Source: Phytoactinopolyspora mesophila (GTDB lineage: Bacteria > Actinomycetota > Actinomycetes > Jiangellales > Jiangellaceae). From it: a DNA stretch of 64,000 nucleotides. Shown piece after piece: positions 53,059-61,755 of the stretch. The notes under the pieces are model-generated. The model saw only the letters and a list, made by a program, of their open reading frames with translations. It was not told where the DNA came from and ran no database searches. How positions within the stretch are numbered: position 1 is the stretch's first letter; every line of letters begins with the position of its first letter. Location of the stretch: NCBI RefSeq assembly GCF_010122465.1, contig NZ_WLZY01000004.1, positions 124,001 to 188,000 on the forward strand, in the 5' to 3' direction. The position numbers and the translations under genes are program-made.

Positions 53059-54273
53059 TTAGCCGCTGCGCAACGCCGTGATCGGTTCTATCGTCGACGC
53101 TCGCCAAGCCGGATACATCCCGGCGACGAGGCCGATCAGCGCGCCCAGCAATGGCGCGGTGCCGGCCAAGCGGTAGTCCAGCAGTGGTGTCCAATCGCGC
53201 AGTGCCGAAACGCCCACGGTCACCAGCACGCCGGCAGCTGCACCGACTAGTCCACCGAGAAAGCCGATGACGACGCTCTCTGCGACGAACTGACCCGCTA
53301 TGTGCCTACGTGCCGCCCCTACTGACCGCCGCAAACCGATCTCCGAGACGCGTTCCATGACCGAGAGCAGCGTGATGTTCGCGATGCCGAGGCCGCCTAC
53401 CAGGAGCGCCAGCCCGCCAAGGGCGAGGAACACGGCATTGACGTCGGTGGACACGTCTTCTCGCATAGAACCGGGACGCGGCGGAACCTCTACGCTGAGC
53501 AGGCTTGGATTGTTCGGCGACACAGCCAGTGGCGCCTGGCCGCCGACGAGCTGGGCGGCACCGAGGACCGTCCGGATCTCCAGCGCTTCGGGTGCTTCCA
53601 AACCGAACACCGACGAGGCCGTGCCCATGGGCATGATGACGGCATCCAGCAGTTCAGTGCGGTGCGAGACCGTATCGAGGATGCCTGCGACGGTGAACGG
53701 CCGTTCGCCGATGAAGATGGTCGGCTGCGATTCCACGCGGGTGATGCCGAGCCGTTCCGCGGCATACCGGCCGAGGACGACCAGCTCGTCGCCTCGCTCG
53801 TCGTGCCCGGAGTCGAAGAACCTGCCGGTGGACAGCACGCCGTTGAGGGCGTCGAACAGGCCGGGTGAACCGGCCATGACCGGAATGTCATGGTCGATCC
53901 CCCCTGCCGGATCGACCACAGGTATGCCGCGGACGCGCGTTTTGCCGACGTCCACGCGAGCGAAGGTGCCGGATGCGGCGACGCCGGCCAACCGGTCGAC
54001 CCGTTCCGTGGCATCCCAGGGCAACTGAGTGGCCTGAACCGAGCCGTCGGGGCCGTCGCGCTCACCGGCTTCGACGACGACGCGCGTGGCGGCCACGGCG
54101 TCGAAGCGGTCGGTGATCTGCCCGGAGGCGGTCTGCCCGAGCCCCATGGTGGAGACCAACGCGGCTACCCCCAGAACAGTGCCGAGGGTGGTCAGGATCA
54201 GCCGCGAGGGACGCGCTGCGACGCCGGCCAGCGCCTCGCCCAGGAGATCCCGGAAGGTGAATCGAAATCTCAT
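53059..54273 (-). CDS. MacB-like ABC transporter permease (FtsX domain)
   Basis: The 404-residue protein has an N-terminal helix (about residues 22-45), a large extracellular MacB-type core domain (about 48-275: [49 protein letters not shown]), then three helices of an FtsX domain (NAVFLALGGLALLVGGLGIANITLLSVMERVSEIGLRRSVGA and following). This is the mechanotransmission type of transporter, which moves or expels lipoproteins, peptides or antibiotics. The start overlaps the ATPase gene by four bases. Operon: lipoprotein-adaptor-ATPase-permease. Confidence 0.93.
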   Translation of the reverse strand: MRFRFTFRDLLGEALAGVAARPSRLILTTLGTVLGVAALVSTMGLGQTASGQITDRFDAVAATRVVVEAGERDGPDGSVQATQLPWDATERVDRLAGVAASGTFARVDVGKTRVRGIPVVDPAGGIDHDIPVMAGSPGLFDALNGVLSTGRFFDSGHDERGDELVVLGRYAAERLGITRVESQPTIFIGERPFTVAGILDTVSHRTELLDAVIMPMGTASSVFGLEAPEALEIRTVLGAAQLVGGQAPLAVSPNNPSLLSVEVPPRPGSMREDVSTDVNAVFLALGGLALLVGGLGIANITLLSVMERVSEIGLRRSVGAARRHIAGQFVAESVVIGFLGGLVGAAAGVLVTVGVSALRDWTPLLDYRLAGTAPLLGALIGLVAGMYPAWRASTIEPITALRSG

Positions 54274-55040
54274 GACATCACCTGGTTGGCCGGGGCGCCG
54301 AGCGGATCCGCGGCAAGCTTCCGGGGTACTGGTTGGTCGATTCCCTCGCTCAGGGTTCCGTCGGTGATCCGGACCCGCCGATCGGCCCGGTGGCTGACGT
54401 CGTCGTCGTGGGTGATCACCGCCAAGGTGAGGCCTTCGGCGTGCAGCTTGTCGAACACCTCGAGAACTGCCTCGGCATTACCGGAGTCGAGGTTCCCCGT
54501 CGGTTCATCGGCGAGCAGCAGGCTCGGCTCGGCGACGAGCGCCCGGGCGATGGCCACGCGTTGCCGCTCGCCGCCGGAGAGTGTGGTCGGCTCGAAGTCG
54601 ATCCGATGCCCCAGGCCGACGCGCTCGAGGGTGGCACGGGATCGCTCCAGGCGTTCCCGCTTCGGCACCCGTCGATACAGCATGGACAGGCCGACGTTCT
54701 CCAGCACGCTCCGGTGTGGCAGAAGGTGAAAGGCTTGAAAGACGAATCCGATCCGCTCGCCGCGCAGCGTGGAGCGGCGGGCCTCGGAAAGCCCGCTGAC
54801 ATCCACTCCGTCCAGCCGGTACGTGCCGGTGGTCGGCCGGTCTAGCAAGCCCAGGAGATGCAAAAGTGTCGATTTCCCGGAGCCGGACGGGCCGATGATG
54901 GACACGTACTCGCCTTCCCAGATCGTGACGTTGACATCGCGCACGGCCTGAACCTCGGGCGGGCCTGGAAACGAGCGGCTGACTCCGGTCATTTCCACTA
55001 CGGGAGGGGTTACCGCGGCCGATGGGTCAGCGCTCGTCAT
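54270..55040 (-). CDS. MacB/LolD-like ABC transporter ATP-binding protein
   Basis: The ATG at 55040 opens a 256-residue ATPase with Walker A GPSGSGKST, the Q-loop region FVFQAFHLLPHRSVLENV, signature LSGGERQRVAIARALVAEPS, Walker B LLLADEPTGNLDS and the H-loop ITHDDDV. The RTLENV-type sequence and length belong to the LolD/MacB subfamily that energises FtsX-like permeases. It overlaps the adaptor gene by 14 bp. Confidence 0.94.
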   Translation of the reverse strand: MTSADPSAAVTPPVVEMTGVSRSFPGPPEVQAVRDVNVTIWEGEYVSIIGPSGSGKSTLLHLLGLLDRPTTGTYRLDGVDVSGLSEARRSTLRGERIGFVFQAFHLLPHRSVLENVGLSMLYRRVPKRERLERSRATLERVGLGHRIDFEPTTLSGGERQRVAIARALVAEPSLLLADEPTGNLDSGNAEAVLEVFDKLHAEGLTLAVITHDDDVSHRADRRVRITDGTLSEGIDQPVPRKLAADPLGAPANQVMS

Positions 55041-56529
55041 CTGACTCCCCTTCGCCGTCGCCCGTGTCGGCTTCGCCGCCGATGACCACCAGGTCGCCTT
55101 CCTCGAGTGACCCTTCGACGGGCTCGACCTCGGCATAGCCGCGCGCGGTCAGCCCGACCTCCACCTCCAGCAGCTCGATGATCTCTTCGCCCTCCGCGGA
55201 AAGGCGCTGGACCTCGACCCTCGCCTCGCCACCCGGACCGGCTGTGAGCGCTGCTAGCGGCACCGCCAGGACGTCACCCTCGGTGCTCTCGACCGGGATC
55301 GTCACCCGCACGTTGGCGCCGCGGAGTTCATCGACCTGATCAGCGGTAAGGTCCTCAGGTGTCATGGTCACCCGGTGCCCGGAGGAGTCACCGGACGGTT
55401 CACGTATCCGGGTGATGGGCGCTGTGATCTGCTCCCCGCTGGGCAACTCGATCATGGCTTCCATGTCCTCTTCAAGCAGCTCGCGAGCGGCCTCGTCCAC
55501 CTCCGCCGTCACGACGAGGTCGGTTCCGCTGATGGACATCACGGTTCCCTCAACGACGCCTCCGCGGCGTACCTCGACGTCGTCGACCCGACGCGGCAGC
55601 GAGGAGACGAAGACCACCTCGGAAGCGGGCAGAGGTGTTCCGGCTTCGGTGGCGGCCGCATCCCGGGCGGCCTGAGCATCGCTCAGCCGCTGGCGGGCAT
55701 TGTCCAGCATCTTCTGCTCCGCGGATGTGTCCGGACCCTTCTGCAGATCGGCCAGGGTCGCCTGGGCCAGCCTCAGCTGAGCCTCGGCCTCGGCGACGAG
55801 ATCCGTGTCGCCGTCCCGGCGCGCCTGCTTCAACGCTCGGGTAGCCTGATCGACATCGTTCTGGGCGGCGACCTTCTCCGCTTCGGACGGCCCGGTCTTG
55901 GCCGCATCGAGTGCGGCTTCGGCGTCGGCGACTTCGTCTTCGGCCATCTGCATGGCCTGCCGGGCGGTGTCGAGCTCAGCCTGAACATCCGGGGCCGCCG
56001 CCGGTGGACTGTATCCCGCCTCGTCGAACAGTTCCGCCACCGCACGTCCCGTGGCGCTGGTGTAGGTGTCGTCGACCGTGCCGGGATCGAACCCGAGCGC
56101 GTCCAGCGCTTTCTCGAGTTGTTCCACGTCCGGGCCAGACATGCCGGGCCGCAGTGAGCGGTACATCGGCAGATCGCCCGGCAAGGCGATGACCGGCCGG
56201 CCGACGATCTCCAGCAGGACGTCGCCCGCCTTGACCTGGTCGCCGACGTCAGGAACTTGACCGGTGACCACGGGAGAGGTCTCCAGCCCGGCCAGCTCCG
56301 GCGCGACATCGACGGCCCCGGTGTACGACGCCTCCCCGCGGGTTGTCACCTCACTTTCCAGAGTCCGCCGCTCCACCGGAACGGTGACCGCGGTCGCGGT
56401 GGGCGGTGCTGTCCGCGCGGCGGCCTCCTCCGGTGAGGTAATACGCGTACCGGCGAAGACGCCGGCGGCCAGCGCCCCGACGGCGACTGCGACCACGATC
56501 ACCAGTACTCGGCTGCGCGAACGCATCAC
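55027..56529 (-). CDS. MacA/HlyD-like adaptor with peptidoglycan-binding domain
   Basis: This 500-residue protein has an N-terminal membrane anchor (about residues 8-28), biotinyl-lipoyl-like strands (LAGLETSPVVTGQVPDVGDQVKAGDVLLEIVGRPV), a peptidoglycan-binding domain (about 122-170: LRPGMSGPDVEQLEKALDALGF) and an Ala/Glu-rich coiled coil (about 180-285). Beta-barrel and membrane-proximal domains with VTMTPEDLTADQVDELRGANVRVTIPV follow. In Gram-positive bacteria such adaptors extend the transporter across the wall. It overlaps the lipoprotein gene upstream by four bases and the ATPase gene downstream. Confidence 0.9.
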   Translation of the reverse strand: MMRSRSRVLVIVVAVAVGALAAGVFAGTRITSPEEAAARTAPPTATAVTVPVERRTLESEVTTRGEASYTGAVDVAPELAGLETSPVVTGQVPDVGDQVKAGDVLLEIVGRPVIALPGDLPMYRSLRPGMSGPDVEQLEKALDALGFDPGTVDDTYTSATGRAVAELFDEAGYSPPAAAPDVQAELDTARQAMQMAEDEVADAEAALDAAKTGPSEAEKVAAQNDVDQATRALKQARRDGDTDLVAEAEAQLRLAQATLADLQKGPDTSAEQKMLDNARQRLSDAQAARDAAATEAGTPLPASEVVFVSSLPRRVDDVEVRRGGVVEGTVMSISGTDLVVTAEVDEAARELLEEDMEAMIELPSGEQITAPITRIREPSGDSSGHRVTMTPEDLTADQVDELRGANVRVTIPVESTEGDVLAVPLAALTAGPGGEARVEVQRLSAEGEEIIELLEVEVGLTARGYAEVEPVEGSLEEGDLVVIGGEADTGDGEGESDDER

Positions 56530-57632
56530 CCGGCCGCACCCGACTCAGCCAGCCAATCGCGGTAACGCTCGAGCTCCTCGCGGTTGGCGTCGACGAACTC
56601 CTGCTCCATCTGATGAGCGACTTCGCGGTACGTCTCGTCGAAATGGTCCTGGTTGCAGGTGAAGTCCGCGGTCGCGACGTCGATTTCGTATTCCTGAACT
56701 TCCCGGAGAACAGCCGGGTCGATCGTGTCGGCCGAATCACCGACCACGAAGCCGGTCTCGGCATCGCCCGATGAACTCGCCTCCATCATCCGGTCGAAGA
56801 CCGCACTCTGGGCGTCGTCAGGGGCGTCGAAGTCCGCGTATCCGGCGTCTGCCATGCAGCCACGCCAGTCCGCGAGTGCGTCCTCGATCCGTGGGTCCCG
56901 GCGGATCCGGTCCTGCAGTGCGGCGATCTCGTTCCACAGGCTGTCGAACTGCGAGTGGTCGAACTCCTCGGCATCGAAGGTGGACTCGCCGTAGACCTCG
57001 TCGCCTGCTTTGCCCATGCAGCCGGTGTCGGCGCCGTCCAAGTCGACCTGGTCACCGAGGCTCTCGTCCCGGACGGTGCCGTCGTCATCAACGCTGACCG
57101 CCATCGTTGGCACATCGCCCCACAAGGCCAGGTCGTATGCCTCCTGGGCCGACTCGGACAGCTCAGCGCGAATCGCCTGGTTGGGATCGTCCGGCGTGCC
57201 GTCGCCCTCCGCTGGCCCGAACATCAGGGTGGAGATGCCGTAGCCGTACTCCTTGGCGAATTCCTCCGGTTCCAAGGCGTACGCGTCCTCGAACCGTGAG
57301 ACTCCGGCCGAGACGTCGTCGAGTGAGGTCGGCACGTACTCGAAGCCCTCTTCCTGCATACATTCCGCGACCAGTTCCTGTACGCGGCGGTACCTCTGCC
57401 GGTCTTCGTCCGTGGGTTCCTGGTCACCGAAGCCGGCGACGGCTACAACGCTGCTACCGCCGAAGCCGATAGTTGATGAGCCCATGTACTCGGCCAGGGG
57501 ACTCTCCTCGCCTCCCGATTCTGACATCTCCCCCCGGTTGGAAGTGGCCGAGTCGTCGTCGCTACATCCGGCAAGTACCAGCCCGGTCATACCCAGAGCA
57601 GCCCACATCGTGGTTCGCATTCGTCTGTTCAT
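56526..57632 (-). CDS. Four-cysteine lipoprotein A, first gene of the MacAB-like operon
   Basis: The 368-residue protein has a lipobox (LVLAGC, Cys23) and an acidic mature region. Four cysteines beyond the lipobox lie in fixed contexts: VAECMQEEGFEYVPTS, DTGCMGKAGDE, WRGCMADAGY and DFTCNQDHF. The C-terminus is a helix, EQEFVDANREELERYRDWL. It is paralogous to the protein at 57751-58797 along its whole length. I do not recognise the family. ATG 57632 is supported by a -10-like CAGTCT 7 nt before it and an activator box further upstream. Coupling to the transporter genes suggests it binds the transported or sensed molecule. Confidence 0.82.
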   Translation of the reverse strand: MNRRMRTTMWAALGMTGLVLAGCSDDDSATSNRGEMSESGGEESPLAEYMGSSTIGFGGSSVVAVAGFGDQEPTDEDRQRYRRVQELVAECMQEEGFEYVPTSLDDVSAGVSRFEDAYALEPEEFAKEYGYGISTLMFGPAEGDGTPDDPNQAIRAELSESAQEAYDLALWGDVPTMAVSVDDDGTVRDESLGDQVDLDGADTGCMGKAGDEVYGESTFDAEEFDHSQFDSLWNEIAALQDRIRRDPRIEDALADWRGCMADAGYADFDAPDDAQSAVFDRMMEASSSGDAETGFVVGDSADTIDPAVLREVQEYEIDVATADFTCNQDHFDETYREVAHQMEQEFVDANREELERYRDWLAESGAAG

Positions 57633-57656
57633 GAGCCCGAGACTGCATGAGGAGCT

Positions 57657-57673
57657 GTGAAGATCTGGTGAAG
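57657..57673 (-). promoter_or_regulatory. Response-regulator box upstream of lipoprotein A
   Basis: On the minus strand CTTCAC-N5-CTTCAC: direct hexamers with 11-bp period (complements at 57668-57673 and 57657-57662). The second repeat ends 24 nt before the ATG and 11 nt before a -10-like CAGTCT (complement of 57640-57645). This is the geometry of PhoB/OmpR-class activator sites. Confidence 0.75.
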
Positions 57674-57750
57674 AAGCGATCAGCGCCGGACTCTTCCCGG
57701 GATCGTCATCTCGAGGAACCGGATACGGGGGCGGGTGGTCGTGGCAGTCA

Positions 57751-58797
57751 TCAGGACGCGCCCGATCCGTGGAGAAACTCGCGATACCGCTCGAGCTCCG
57801 CTCGCTGAGCATCGACGAACTCTTCCTCCAGTTCCATAGCGACCTCGTGGTATGCGGCCTCATGCTGGGCCCGGCATTGCAGGTCGGCGGTCGCCAGCTC
57901 GATCTCGTGCTTCTGGAGTTCGGCCAGAACCTGCGGTGCGATCACGAATCGGGTGTCTCCCTCGACGATGACGCCGACGTCGCCGGATGTTGAAGCGGCT
58001 TCGGCCTCCGGCACGCTTACCTCGGACGCCCGGTCCTGAATCGACCAGTACGGCTGGTCCAGTTCCTCGAATCCCGAAAAGCCTTGGCCGGCCATACATT
58101 CCCGCCATTCGTCGACCATCGCGGATACCCGCGGATCCCGGTCAACACGGTCGAAGAGCGCGTCAACATCGTTGAACAGGGCGTCGAACTCGCTGCTGAT
58201 CTCATCCAGATTCGGCTGGTCGTCAACCATGTCCGCATACGCCTGGTCGTAGCAACCGGAGTTTTCCCGCAGGCCGGAATCCTCGTCCTGCTTTCCCCAG
58301 AGCGCGTCGTCGTGGGCCTCGCGCGCGGCACCGCCGAGGTTCTCCTGTATTTCCTCGTTGGGGTCGGGTTCGCGGGGTTCGTTGGCGGTCGAGGTGAAAA
58401 TGATGGTGGTGAGGCCATAACCGAATTGCTCCGCGAATTCGGCAGGTTCCAGCGAGTAGGCCTCGTCGAACTCATTCGGGCCGGTGTCATCGTTCTCCAG
58501 TGTTGTGGGCACGTATTCGAAGCCCGCGTCGCGCATACATTCGGCGACCGACTCCTCGACGTGGCGGTGCTGCCGGAACTCTTCCTCGGAGTGCTCCGGA
58601 ACATCGTCGTCCGCCCTGAACCCATGTCTGCCGAAACCGGATGTCACCGGTGTATGGCTCATGAACTCAGCGAGTGGACCAGAGGTGTCGTGGTCGGCAT
58701 CCGGGCCGTCAGCTGTGTCGGTTTTCGAGCAGCCAGTCATCAGAAGGAATGTCGCGGCGCAGAAGGACAATGCTGTGCGCTGGTAGTTGTTCGTCAT
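57751..58797 (-). CDS. Four-cysteine lipoprotein B, paralogue divergent to the two-component system
   Basis: This 348-residue lipoprotein (LLMTGC, Cys23) is a full-length paralogue of lipoprotein A. The four cysteine contexts are VAECMRDAGFEYVPTT, NSGCYDQAYADM, WRECMAGQGFSG and DLQCRAQHEAAYHEV, and it ends in the same type of helix (EEEFVDAQRAELERYREFL). It is a single gene, transcribed away from the response regulator, with the same upstream box and start geometry as lipoprotein A. The role is unknown; a ligand-binding or signal-presenting partner of the kinase is plausible. Confidence 0.82.
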   Translation of the reverse strand: MTNNYQRTALSFCAATFLLMTGCSKTDTADGPDADHDTSGPLAEFMSHTPVTSGFGRHGFRADDDVPEHSEEEFRQHRHVEESVAECMRDAGFEYVPTTLENDDTGPNEFDEAYSLEPAEFAEQFGYGLTTIIFTSTANEPREPDPNEEIQENLGGAAREAHDDALWGKQDEDSGLRENSGCYDQAYADMVDDQPNLDEISSEFDALFNDVDALFDRVDRDPRVSAMVDEWRECMAGQGFSGFEELDQPYWSIQDRASEVSVPEAEAASTSGDVGVIVEGDTRFVIAPQVLAELQKHEIELATADLQCRAQHEAAYHEVAMELEEEFVDAQRAELERYREFLHGSGAS

Positions 58798-58820
58798 GCC
58801 GCATACGGTGCCGAGAAGCT

Positions 58821-58837
58821 GTGAAGTACCTGTGAAA
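58821..58837 (-). promoter_or_regulatory. Response-regulator box upstream of lipoprotein B
   Basis: On the minus strand TTTCAC-N5-CTTCAC with 11-bp period (complements at 58832-58837 and 58821-58826), ending 23 nt before the ATG at 58797. A -10-like CACCGT (complement of 58805-58810) lies 7 nt before the ATG. The flanks also resemble those of lipoprotein A (CTTCACAGCT shared). Confidence 0.75.
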
Positions 58838-58856
58838 GCGCGGTCAGATCCTCACT

Positions 58857-58873
58857 CTTCACAAGTTCTTGAC
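58857..58873 (+). promoter_or_regulatory. Response-regulator box upstream of the response regulator gene
   Basis: CTTCAC (58857-58862)-N5-CTTGAC (58868-58873), 11-bp period, on the + strand, ends 23 nt before the ATG at 58897. AACACT (58884-58889) lies 7 nt before the ATG as a -10-like hexamer. This third copy points toward the two-component genes and suggests positive autoregulation. Confidence 0.7.
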
Positions 58874-58896
58874 CGGATCCTGGAACACTGGCGCGC

Positions 58897-59631
58897 ATGG
58901 GAGCCCGAATCCTGGTAGCCGAGGACGACCACAAACAGGCCGATCTTGTGCGCCGTTACCTCGAGCGGGAGGGTCATTCGGTCATCGTCGCGCCCGACGG
59001 CAGAGTGGCACTCGACGAGGCACGGCGTCGCTCACCCGACCTGGTAGTGCTCGACGTCATGATGCCGCGAGTCGACGGGCTGGATGTATGCCGGATCCTG
59101 CGCACCGAGGCAGACGTCCCGATCATCATGCTGACCGCTCGAAGCACCGAGGACGATCTGCTGCTGGGGTTGGACCTCGGCGCCGACGACTACATCACGA
59201 AGCCGTACAGTCCGCGGGAGCTCGTGGCCAGGGTCCGGACGGTCCTGCGCCGCGCTGTGCGGCAAGTTTCGCTGGACGACGCGGTCCATCGGATCGGAGA
59301 GCTCGAGGTCGACCCGGTGCGGCACGAGGTCCGGCTGGCAGGCGACCGAGTAGTGGTGACACCCGCGGAGTTCAAGATCCTGGCCTGCCTGGCCGCCTCG
59401 CCCGGGCGGGTCTTCAGTAGGCAGTACTTGTTGGAGCAGGCGTTCGGCTTCGACCACTACGTGCTCGAGCGCACCGTGGATGTCCACGTCATGAACTTGC
59501 GTCGCAAGATCGAGTCCGATCACACCAGGCCGGCATATTTGTTGACCGTGTACGGCGTCGGCTACAAGATGACCGAGAAGATCAGACCATCCGGTCAGGC
59601 AGTGACCGTGGGGGCGTCCGATGCGACATAG
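58897..59631 (+). CDS. OmpR/PhoB-family response regulator
   Basis: This 244-residue protein has a receiver domain (residues 4-115) with acidic pair Asp10-Asp11, phospho-acceptor Asp53 (VVLDVMMPR), the LTAR switch Thr and the ITKPYSP lysine. An OmpR winged helix (about 130-230) carries PAEFKILACLAASPGRVFSRQYLLEQAFG, RTVDVHVMNLRRKIE and the YLLTVYGVGYKM wing. It overlaps the kinase gene by 11 bp. Its probable sites are the CTTCAC direct repeats at its own promoter and at both lipoprotein promoters. Confidence 0.95.
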   Translation: MGARILVAEDDHKQADLVRRYLEREGHSVIVAPDGRVALDEARRRSPDLVVLDVMMPRVDGLDVCRILRTEADVPIIMLTARSTEDDLLLGLDLGADDYITKPYSPRELVARVRTVLRRAVRQVSLDDAVHRIGELEVDPVRHEVRLAGDRVVVTPAEFKILACLAASPGRVFSRQYLLEQAFGFDHYVLERTVDVHVMNLRRKIESDHTRPAYLLTVYGVGYKMTEKIRPSGQAVTVGASDAT

Positions 59632-61618
59632 CGTCCTGCTGAGGTTGCTGGGCCTCTCACTAGCCGTGGCCGTATTCGCCATTGCCGCTACCGCATGGCT
59701 GACCAGCCGGGACACCAGCGAACGGTTCCGTGGTGAGTTCGAGCGGACATTGGAGGCTGACACCTTCATCTACCAGGGGTTGAGTGAATACGCCTCGCGG
59801 AACGATTCATGGGACGGCGTCGACACAGTCGTGGCCGAACTGGCCGAACGCACCGGCCGCCGGGTGGCGCTGACCACCCTGGACGGCGACGTCCTGGCCG
59901 ATTCCGCCGCCATCTCCGGTCAGCCTGCCCCAGCGCTGGCCTCGACTCCCACCGCGGAGATCGACGCGCTCTCCGGCCAGTTCCAAGGGGTGGAGACAAC
60001 GGTGGTCGGCTACCAGGGTGACACATTCGTCGCCGAGACCATGGACACGATGGCCTTGCACGATATCTCGGATCCGTACTCGCTTCGCGGCACCGTGGGC
60101 CAGCTCGCCGTCTCTGCCGCGGCGCCGTCGAGCGTCTCGCCGGTGTGGCGGCTCGATCCCGACGAAGCAGCCGCGCGTTTCTCCTTGGCTGCGGATGCCC
60201 AGGAGTGTCTGAAGGAAGATCTCGATCTTGACGACGAGGTGATGGTCACCCCTTCCGGCGAGGTCTTGCTCCTCGGCGACGCCTATGTGGAGAAGGTCCT
60301 CCGCGGCGTGGTCAGTGAGGATCACTCTGGCGAATTCGTTCAGGGGCTGAACTCGCTGGACCTCGGTGGCGCCGCCGCCCACTCCTGCCTGCCGGCGGAG
60401 CTGTTCGAAGCAAGCGACGCGGCCTTGGCGTTCAACCGGCAGGAGATCAACTTGCTGGAAGAATGCCTCGACAACGGCAACGTCCCCCACATGGTGGTGG
60501 ACGTCGAAGCCGGGCTCAAGCGAGTCATCCCGGAGCCAAGCGCTCATGGCGATCTGTCCTCGCTCGACGAGACGGAATGGAACCACTGGATCGACTGCGA
60601 GCAATCGGCGTGGAACGAGACGATGGAGGATTTCGTCGCCGAGCCTGCGCTGCTCTACTCGGGTGACGCGGGCCGGTTCGACCCATTTTTCGGTGACGGC
60701 TGGTGGCGGACCACCTTGGCTGGGCTGGCTGTGCTCGCGGCCGCCACCGGCGTGACCGTGCTGGTCGGCCGTCGGCTTACCCGCCCGATCCACGCTTTGA
60801 CCACAGCGGCGACCCGGATGGGGGAAGGCGATCACAGCGCGCGTGTCGACGTCGGCGGCCAGAGCGAGCTGGCCCGGCTCGGTACCGCCTTCAACTCGAT
60901 GGCTGAGTCGATCGAGACGAACGAGCGGCAGCGCAAGGCCATGGTGAGCGACGTCGCTCATGAACTGCGCACGCCGCTGTCCAACGTGCGGGGGTATCTG
61001 GAGGCTGCTGAGGATGGCGTCGTGCCACTCGACCGGGCGCTGGTCTCGTCGCTGCTCGAGGAGTCGGGTCTGCTAGAGCGGCTGATCGACGACCTGCAAG
61101 ATCTGGCGCTGGCTGATGCCGGGAAGCTGCGGGTTCATCCTCAGGAGGTTGACGCCGAGCAACTGGCCCGGCACGTCGTCGCGGTCCAAGGGGCATCGGC
61201 GGACGACGCCGGGGTGAGCATCGAACTCGAGTCGGAGTCGGCCACCGTCGTTGTTGATCCCGAGCGGCTCCGGCAGGCGCTGGGGAACCTGGTCGCCAAT
61301 GCGGTGCGATTCTCCGACGACGGCGCCCACGTGACCGTCCGGGTCCGGCCCGAGGACGCGGAGGGGGACTGGGTGCTCTTCACCGTCGAGGACGACGGCC
61401 CGGGGATACCCGAGGAGCACGTGCCCCGGCTGTTCGACCGCTTCTACCGGGTGGAACAGTCCAGAAGCAGGGCAACCGGCGGCAGCGGCCTGGGACTCGC
61501 GATCACCAAGCACCTCGTCGAAGCACACGGCGGGACGATCAGTGTTGAGAGCACGGTTGGTGAAGGCAGCGTCTTCACTATCCGGTTGCCCGCACGTATT
61601 CCGGTGCCGACCACCTGA
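59621..61618 (+). CDS. Sensor histidine kinase with a large cysteine-containing extracellular domain
   Basis: The 665-residue protein has a first membrane helix (about 5-27), an extracellular region of about 330 residues, a second helix (about 361-383), HAMP, HisKA with His447 (VAHELRTPLSNVRGYLE), and an HATPase domain (NLVANAVRFSDDG, VEDDGPGIPEEH, GGSGLGLAITKHL). The extracellular part has four cysteines (QECLKED, HSCLPAELF, EECLDNGNVPHMVV, WIDCEQSAW) in contexts reminiscent of the neighbouring lipoproteins. It should phosphorylate the response regulator encoded just upstream when its outer domain senses a signal at the cell surface. Confidence 0.93.
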   Translation: MRHSVLLRLLGLSLAVAVFAIAATAWLTSRDTSERFRGEFERTLEADTFIYQGLSEYASRNDSWDGVDTVVAELAERTGRRVALTTLDGDVLADSAAISGQPAPALASTPTAEIDALSGQFQGVETTVVGYQGDTFVAETMDTMALHDISDPYSLRGTVGQLAVSAAAPSSVSPVWRLDPDEAAARFSLAADAQECLKEDLDLDDEVMVTPSGEVLLLGDAYVEKVLRGVVSEDHSGEFVQGLNSLDLGGAAAHSCLPAELFEASDAALAFNRQEINLLEECLDNGNVPHMVVDVEAGLKRVIPEPSAHGDLSSLDETEWNHWIDCEQSAWNETMEDFVAEPALLYSGDAGRFDPFFGDGWWRTTLAGLAVLAAATGVTVLVGRRLTRPIHALTTAATRMGEGDHSARVDVGGQSELARLGTAFNSMAESIETNERQRKAMVSDVAHELRTPLSNVRGYLEAAEDGVVPLDRALVSSLLEESGLLERLIDDLQDLALADAGKLRVHPQEVDAEQLARHVVAVQGASADDAGVSIELESESATVVVDPERLRQALGNLVANAVRFSDDGAHVTVRVRPEDAEGDWVLFTVEDDGPGIPEEHVPRLFDRFYRVEQSRSRATGGSGLGLAITKHLVEAHGGTISVESTVGEGSVFTIRLPARIPVPTT

Positions 61619-61681: not shown

Positions 61682-61755
61682 GCGGGTGTAGTTCAATGGT
61701 AGAACTTCAGCTTCCCAAGCTGACAGTGCGGGTTCGATTCCCGTCACCCGCTCCA
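61682..61755 (+). tRNA. tRNA-Gly (anticodon CCC)
   Basis: The acceptor stem GCGGGTG (61682-61688) pairs with CACCCGC (61745-61751), followed by discriminator T and an encoded CCA. The anticodon arm TCAGC-TTCCCAA-GCTGA has loop anticodon CCC, which reads GGG glycine codons. The T-arm is GCGGG-TTCGATT-CCCGT. The last 14 bases plus the next C recur at 62650, as expected where a mobile element once integrated. Confidence 0.95.

Follow-up and report, generated by a model that had tools for sequence, protein, structure and literature searches.

The locus considered here raises the question of which protein reads the short direct repeats that precede three promoters of one envelope-sensing gene module, and what it does to their transcription. 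The module lies in the window (i.e., the whole 64,000-nucleotide stretch of Phytoactinopolyspora mesophila DNA that was analysed, from a genome of 6.5 Mb), and its order is permease, ATPase, adaptor and lipoproteins A and B on the minus strand, with the response regulator and the sensor kinase divergent from them. Among them, the exporter part consists of a MacB/FtsX-type permease (53059–54273, minus strand), an ABC transporter ATPase (54270–55136, minus strand), whose start is uncertain because its ORF overlaps that of the adaptor, and an HlyD-type adaptor with a peptidoglycan-binding match (55027–56529, minus strand). Lipoprotein A (56526–57632, minus strand) has four conserved cysteines in addition to the lipobox cysteine, and lipoprotein B (57751–58797, minus strand) is its paralogue with 43% identity. 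Neither Pfam nor NCBIfam named a family for the lipoproteins, and the sole near-match was that of COX17 to lipoprotein B, with an E value of 0.018, below its cut-off. On the plus strand, the response regulator adjoining the boxes (58897–59631; Response_reg and Trans_reg_C) belongs to the PhoB/OmpR family, its top solved relatives being MtrA, RegX3 and BaeR, and the sensor histidine kinase (59621–61618) has an extracytoplasmic region with four conserved cysteines. The ORFs of lipoprotein A and the adaptor overlap by 4 nt and those of the regulator and the kinase by 11 nt, as in operons, so that each pair may be regarded as a putative operon. No phosphate genes were seen in the module, and a tRNA-Gly (CCC) is located just 3′ of the kinase gene, at 61682–61755 of the window.

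PhoB/OmpR proteins bind direct repeats with an 11-bp period just upstream of the −10 element, and repeats of this period are found at all three promoters. The lipoprotein A box is CTTCACCAGATCTTCAC (CTTCAC-N5-CTTCAC; 57657–57673, minus strand), ending 24 nt before the ATG at 57632; the lipoprotein B box is TTTCACAGGTACTTCAC (TTTCAC-N5-CTTCAC; 58821–58837, minus strand), 23 nt from the ATG at 58797; and the response-regulator box is CTTCACAAGTTCTTGAC (CTTCAC-N5-CTTGAC; 58857–58873, plus strand), 23 nt from the ATG at 58897. The original prediction, made from the letters of the window, had placed the repeats at these sites and distances, which agrees with what was measured; it had also called them identical, and here the shared pattern and the 11-bp period stand while the copies themselves are only near-identical. 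The −10-like hexamers are CAGTCT for lipoprotein A (57640–57645, minus strand), CACCGT for lipoprotein B (58805–58810, minus strand) and AACACT for the regulator (58884–58889, plus strand). They begin 11, 10 and 10 nt past their boxes, inside the predicted 9–10 bp with one base allowed either way, and in all three cases 7 nt separate hexamer and start codon, as had been claimed. What had been overlooked is a third in-register repeat upstream of the lipoprotein boxes, that is, GCTGAT at lipoprotein A (57679–57684, minus strand; 4 of 6 to the consensus) and TCTGAC at lipoprotein B (58843–58848, minus strand), the latter giving the triple TCTGAC-N5-TTTCAC-N5-CTTCAC. A degenerate third copy was likewise missed at the regulator, where CCTGGA (58879–58884), TGG and AACACT run into one another over 58879–58889 of the plus strand. 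In all, the site is located just upstream of the −10 element, in the place of the −35 element, which is a class II-type arrangement.

Since the box pattern was taken from the sites themselves, its presence at the module is circular, and the real test is therefore its rarity elsewhere in the genome and its conservation in relatives. In the 6.5-Mb genome, YTTCACNNNNNCTTSAC occurs 3 times, every one at the module, and the pattern read backwards occurs once; that is to say, random sites of this genome do not commonly carry the motif, which was the outcome by which the original prediction had proposed to be judged. In the window, 3 matches were found when up to 1 mismatch was allowed (each had 0), compared with a shuffle mean of 0.59, and 2 of 100 shuffles reached 3 matches. 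Across 22 family genomes, the bare two-repeat exact box gave 52 matches, 22 at the module and 30 elsewhere. A hand count for the reversed pattern in the same genomes came to 7, so two repeats by themselves make an unspecific pattern, and codon use may explain part of the excess. Among the 19 outside matches that were examined (of 30), none has the −10 plus start geometry. One run of three repeats, TTTCAC-N5-CTTCAC-N5-CTTCAC, also occurs outside the module (L129:1501–1528), without the −10 and start geometry.

Two stricter patterns match the module only. The regulator-type pattern has 19 matches, one each in 19 of the 22 genomes and always at the regulator promoter (reversed control, 0), and the lipoprotein triple pattern has 19 matches in 17 of the 22 genomes, all at module lipoproteins (control, 0; with the first gap one base longer, also 0). 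Because these patterns were written after the same promoters had been seen, only the absence of other matches is informative. In the three genomes that have no regulator-type match (G007, G008 and G009, two of which are incomplete, at 81% and 75%), the best-scoring regulator matches show 46%, 44% and 48% identity, and the regulator match in the comparison genome G014 shows 78%. The three genomes thus have no close regulator, and the presence of the site tracks the regulator gene.

Conservation was followed in 19 genomes of the Jiangellaceae group (the window and L145–L162), in which the box is carried by the regulator gene in 19/19 and by 22 of the 23 module lipoprotein genes, nearly all with the same geometry. 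When promoters were filtered for a start codon 22–27 nt past the box, no early stop and a cysteine near the lipoprotein start, 19 regulator and 19 lipoprotein promoters passed, and the box-to-start distance was 23–24 nt in 38/38. With three filtered-out lipoprotein promoters added back (one whose GTG is 24 nt away, the other two having moved starts), the distance from the box end to an xAxxxT hexamer is 10–11 nt in 41/41 promoters, the hexamer being at +10 in 19/19 regulator promoters and, in the lipoprotein promoters (22/22), at +10 in 3 and at +11 in 19. The mean match to the half-site YYTSAC is 5.95 and 6.00 of 6 for the two regulator copies (n = 19), with 4.42 for the degenerate third, and 5.77, 5.77 and 5.82 of 6 for the lipoprotein triple (n = 22); at other offsets it is 2.2 of 6. 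TGN stands directly before the −10 hexamer in 19/19 regulator promoters, 0/22 lipoprotein promoters and 0/10 distant promoters, and the degenerate third copy at the regulator could represent either another half-site or an extended −10. The −10 hexamers bear little resemblance to TATAAT, and at a spacing of 16–18 the best TTGACA match is 1–2 of 6 at the regulator and 1–3 of 6 at the lipoproteins. A Shine-Dalgarno-like 4-mer was found in 0/39 module promoters with near starts and in 1/11 of the distant set. The box is lacking at one second lipoprotein paralogue (L147:7566) and at two lone lipoproteins (L163 and L164). Elsewhere in L147, the lipoprotein homology starts about 28 codons past the ATG located 23 nt from a box, and since it begins so late, this ATG may not be the start that is used.

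The repeats are thus very probably a PhoB/OmpR-type operator of the adjacent regulator, through which it would switch on, from putative leaderless promoters, its own gene as well as those for the lipoproteins and the exporter; this binding, its activating effect and the transcription starts are all deduced from sequence. The original prediction of such an operator upstream of −10 at leaderless genes is supported by the period, the spacing, the lack of −35 and Shine-Dalgarno elements and the co-occurrence of the regulator. The strict sites are all local and occur where the adjacent regulator does, which makes this regulator the protein most likely to bind them. In the proposed mechanism, phosphorylated regulator molecules would bind head-to-tail on YYTSAC half-sites that are 11 bp, or about one helix turn, apart, and the bound regulator would recruit RNA polymerase to weak −10 elements 10–11 bp downstream with no recognisable −35. 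The transcription start would coincide with the start codon or lie no more than about 2 nt from it, and leaderless mRNAs are accordingly proposed for regulator-kinase and for lipoprotein B; the lipoprotein A promoter, of the same kind, would also drive the overlapping exporter genes. The lipoprotein promoters, which have three half-sites but no TGN, are expected to be strictly regulator-dependent, and the regulator promoter, with two good half-sites and an extended-10-like TGN, is expected to retain a basal level. As described in passages of PMC4832192, PhoB/OmpR regulators bind repeats head-to-tail as cooperative tandem dimers, and PhoP can also bind as trimers and tetramers where the repeats allow it.

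Outside the family, 24 distant loci were considered (L008–L031, of which L027, L029 and L030 are Chloroflexi-type). The period was analysed at 12 divergent starts chosen by eye, including those of Streptomyces, Actinoplanes, Microbispora and Pimelobacter, the other 12 loci being judged to have no suitable divergent start. At gaps of 22–24 nt, the 11-bp period scores 4.67 of 6 against 1.4–2.3 for periods 7–10 and 12–15 (n = 12), and 0/5000 single-base shuffles reached that score; three of the 12 promoters score 4 and two score 2–3. Gaps of 26–28 also score 4.42, so the place of the box in distant promoters is approximate. Eleven distant promoters were aligned with registers picked by eye (L025 is in the 12 but not in the 11; the divergent genes of L020 and L023 have no lipobox, and the ORF of L013 is 39 aa), and in several of them the half-site is CCTGAC-like. 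The recognition-helix stretch RTVDVHVMNLRRK of the regulator is similar across most distant-locus regulators.

The regulator promoters of these loci fall into different forms. A canonical TANNNT lies 5–8 nt before the regulator start in 12/24 distant loci (L017–L026, L028 and L031), and in those 12 no box was found on the regulator strand within 80 nt, the best pair matching 7–9 of 12; in 10 of them the divergent gene has the box, the same 10 being within the 11 aligned promoters. In L013–L016, box-like pairs (11 of 12) precede the regulator and end 26, 27, 44 and 34 nt from its start instead of the 23–24 nt seen in the family, and L016 has a further CTTGAC in register, ending 23 nt before the start. 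Since the regulator promoters carry the box in this family but, in others, a canonical TANNNT, self-regulation seems to be clade-specific, that is, autoregulation would vary while control of the targets stays.

Moved starts in two genomes (L148 and L160) provide a natural experiment that separates promoter from translation signals. Their lipoprotein start codon lies 91 and 89 nt past the box, with GGAGG preceding each, and both retain the box CTTCAT-N5-CTTAAC with an xAxxxT hexamer 11 nt downstream. Both the box and its spacing to the −10 have survived the shift of the start, so the element is a part of the promoter, tied to the −10 and not to the start codon. The lipoprotein gene in these two genomes is Shine-Dalgarno-led, and its relatives look leaderless.

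In addition to the moved starts, the window, L145 and L146 each have two copies of the lipoprotein gene, with upstream regions that also look like duplicates. Ahead of lipoprotein A, the pair facing the regulator matches 5+4, 6+5 and 6+3 of 6 in the three doubled-gene genomes, with no xAxxxT at +10 or +11 in any of the three, and the lipoprotein-facing box matches 6+6 in 3/3. The direction of this unequal decay fits selection on the lipoprotein-facing box, from three cases of which L145 is still box-like. The duplicated upstream regions and the paralogy of the two lipoproteins are also what one would expect if the repeats were selectively neutral leftovers of duplicated genes and promoters that resemble each other by common descent, and the L145 regulator-facing copy (6 and 5 of 6) would agree with such an origin. 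It is nevertheless very improbable: the regulator-facing pair has decayed while the lipoprotein-facing box has not, in three cases only, and other families have kept the 11-bp period of the repeats even with a half-site drifted to CCTGAC.

That the boxes are a repressor operator, by which the adjacent regulator would block these promoters, is unlikely. The degenerate third repeat at the regulator overlaps the TGN and −10, where binding could block polymerase, but the main half-sites end 10–11 bp upstream of −10, there is no −35-like element at spacing 16–18 (best 3 of 6), and the lipoprotein −10 elements are weak and without TGN in 22/22; half-site position, missing −35 and weak −10 without TGN suit activation. 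The owner of the boxes might instead be a different PhoB/OmpR regulator (phosphate-type PhoP or similar), with the module forming part of a larger regulon. Such a regulator would not lack candidates, as family genomes hold many regulator relatives (32 and 34 matches in two genomes); the core resembles published PhoP sites, namely GTTCACC of S. coelicolor and TCACAGC-N4-TCACAGC of M. tuberculosis, and the bare box does occur those 30 times outside the module in 22 genomes. This ownership is nonetheless quite unlikely, given that none of the 19 examined outside matches has both −10 and start geometry, that the strict patterns match the module only and that site presence follows the adjacent regulator. 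All six base-contacting residues of M. tuberculosis PhoP differ at the aligned places in the module regulator, so that helix identity gives no ground to predict binding to a PhoP-like sequence, and another PhoB/OmpR paralogue could be the binder. An operator from which the adjacent regulator activates remains the preferred reading in what follows.

Several known systems are comparable with the module. The M. tuberculosis PhoP site is given as TCACAGC-N4-TCACAGC, in 11-nt units of 7 conserved and 4 spacer nucleotides (passages of PMC4832192 and PMC4415409). As far as these passages go, PhoB/OmpR tandem operators (E. coli PHO box, M. tuberculosis PhoP) consist of two 11-nt units head-to-tail, like the module boxes, and many module lipoprotein promoters read TCACAGG-N4-TCACAGC, one letter off the published site. 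However, the module lipoprotein promoters have three units and a leaderless start at a fixed distance, and the recognition helix is RTVDVHVMN in the module regulator but NVVESYVSY in PhoP. For Streptomyces PhoP, the excerpted text of PMC4415409 gives GTTCACC as the PHO-box unit in S. coelicolor, and on this showing the module boxes share its 11-nt direct repeats and their TTCAC core; the difference is that the module has no phosphate genes and that its strict sites, one to three per genome, are all local. In an exact GTTCAC-N5-GTTCAC search, GTTCACC-type units were not found at the module sites. A phosphate PhoP as owner of the boxes is not supported, that exact pattern being present once in the genome, at C5:299687, where it adjoins the end of a glycosyltransferase-like ORF.

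Leaderless genes of Actinobacteria commonly have a TANNNT-like signal roughly 12 bp ahead of their start codon, according to the portion of PMC3160421 available. The module likewise has a −10-like element close to the start codon and no Shine-Dalgarno sequence, but its −10 is a degenerate one, xAxxxT, that is tied to a repeat box a set distance away. In S. coelicolor, CseA is thought to modulate the kinase CseC (partial text of PMC9739842), and in CseA-CseBC and AfsQ3-AfsQ1/Q2 a lipoprotein gene is tied to a two-component pair, a likeness in gene arrangement as these extracts present it; the module differs in having two paralogous lipoproteins and an exporter. CutRS of Streptomyces has an extracytoplasmic sensor with invariant cysteines, two in CutS, and its CutR motif is TAWATAAA (sections of PMC12802291). 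Set beside that account, the module kinase is likewise an extracytoplasmic sensor with conserved cysteines, but four rather than two, and the module motif is the CTTCAC repeat, not TAWATAAA.

The sensor and the lipoproteins resemble each other in their cysteines. The outer region of the kinase (59711–60700) and the lipoproteins (56529–58731) have four conserved cysteines in similar order, CL/CM...C...C(L/M)...C, which is shared in Jiangellaceae and several distant actinobacteria. Distant lipoproteins (L017–L019, L021, L022, L024, L026 and L031) have four cysteines beyond the lipobox and CL..HG-like motifs. A similar cysteine set is seen in the outer regions of several distant kinases. It is speculated, as a doubtful idea, that the sensor outer region and the lipoproteins are divergent versions of one four-cysteine module, in which case the activated lipoproteins might compete with or cap the sensor; if true, the regulon would feed back through protein likeness. 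Homology was not established by profile comparisons, whose E values are weak. Lipoproteins compared with sensors gave 0.0045 with a probability of 7.7%; distant lipoproteins gave 0.0045 with Jiangellaceae sensors, 0.055 with Jiangellaceae lipoproteins and 0.019 with distant sensors. For the predicted structures (mean pLDDT 79 and 75), the PDB yielded no match at E ≤ 0.001.

In a literature search of titles, abstracts and passages, no publication was found on this module, so a two-component family without a description in that literature is brought to light, whose S. coelicolor counterpart may be a named system. The switch is ordinary in kind and unusually clean in form, a conserved example of a known bacterial type. 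For the module promoters, the half-site and spacing rules are now stated, and sequence alone assigns an operator, its geometry and a probable core regulon of two or three promoters per genome.
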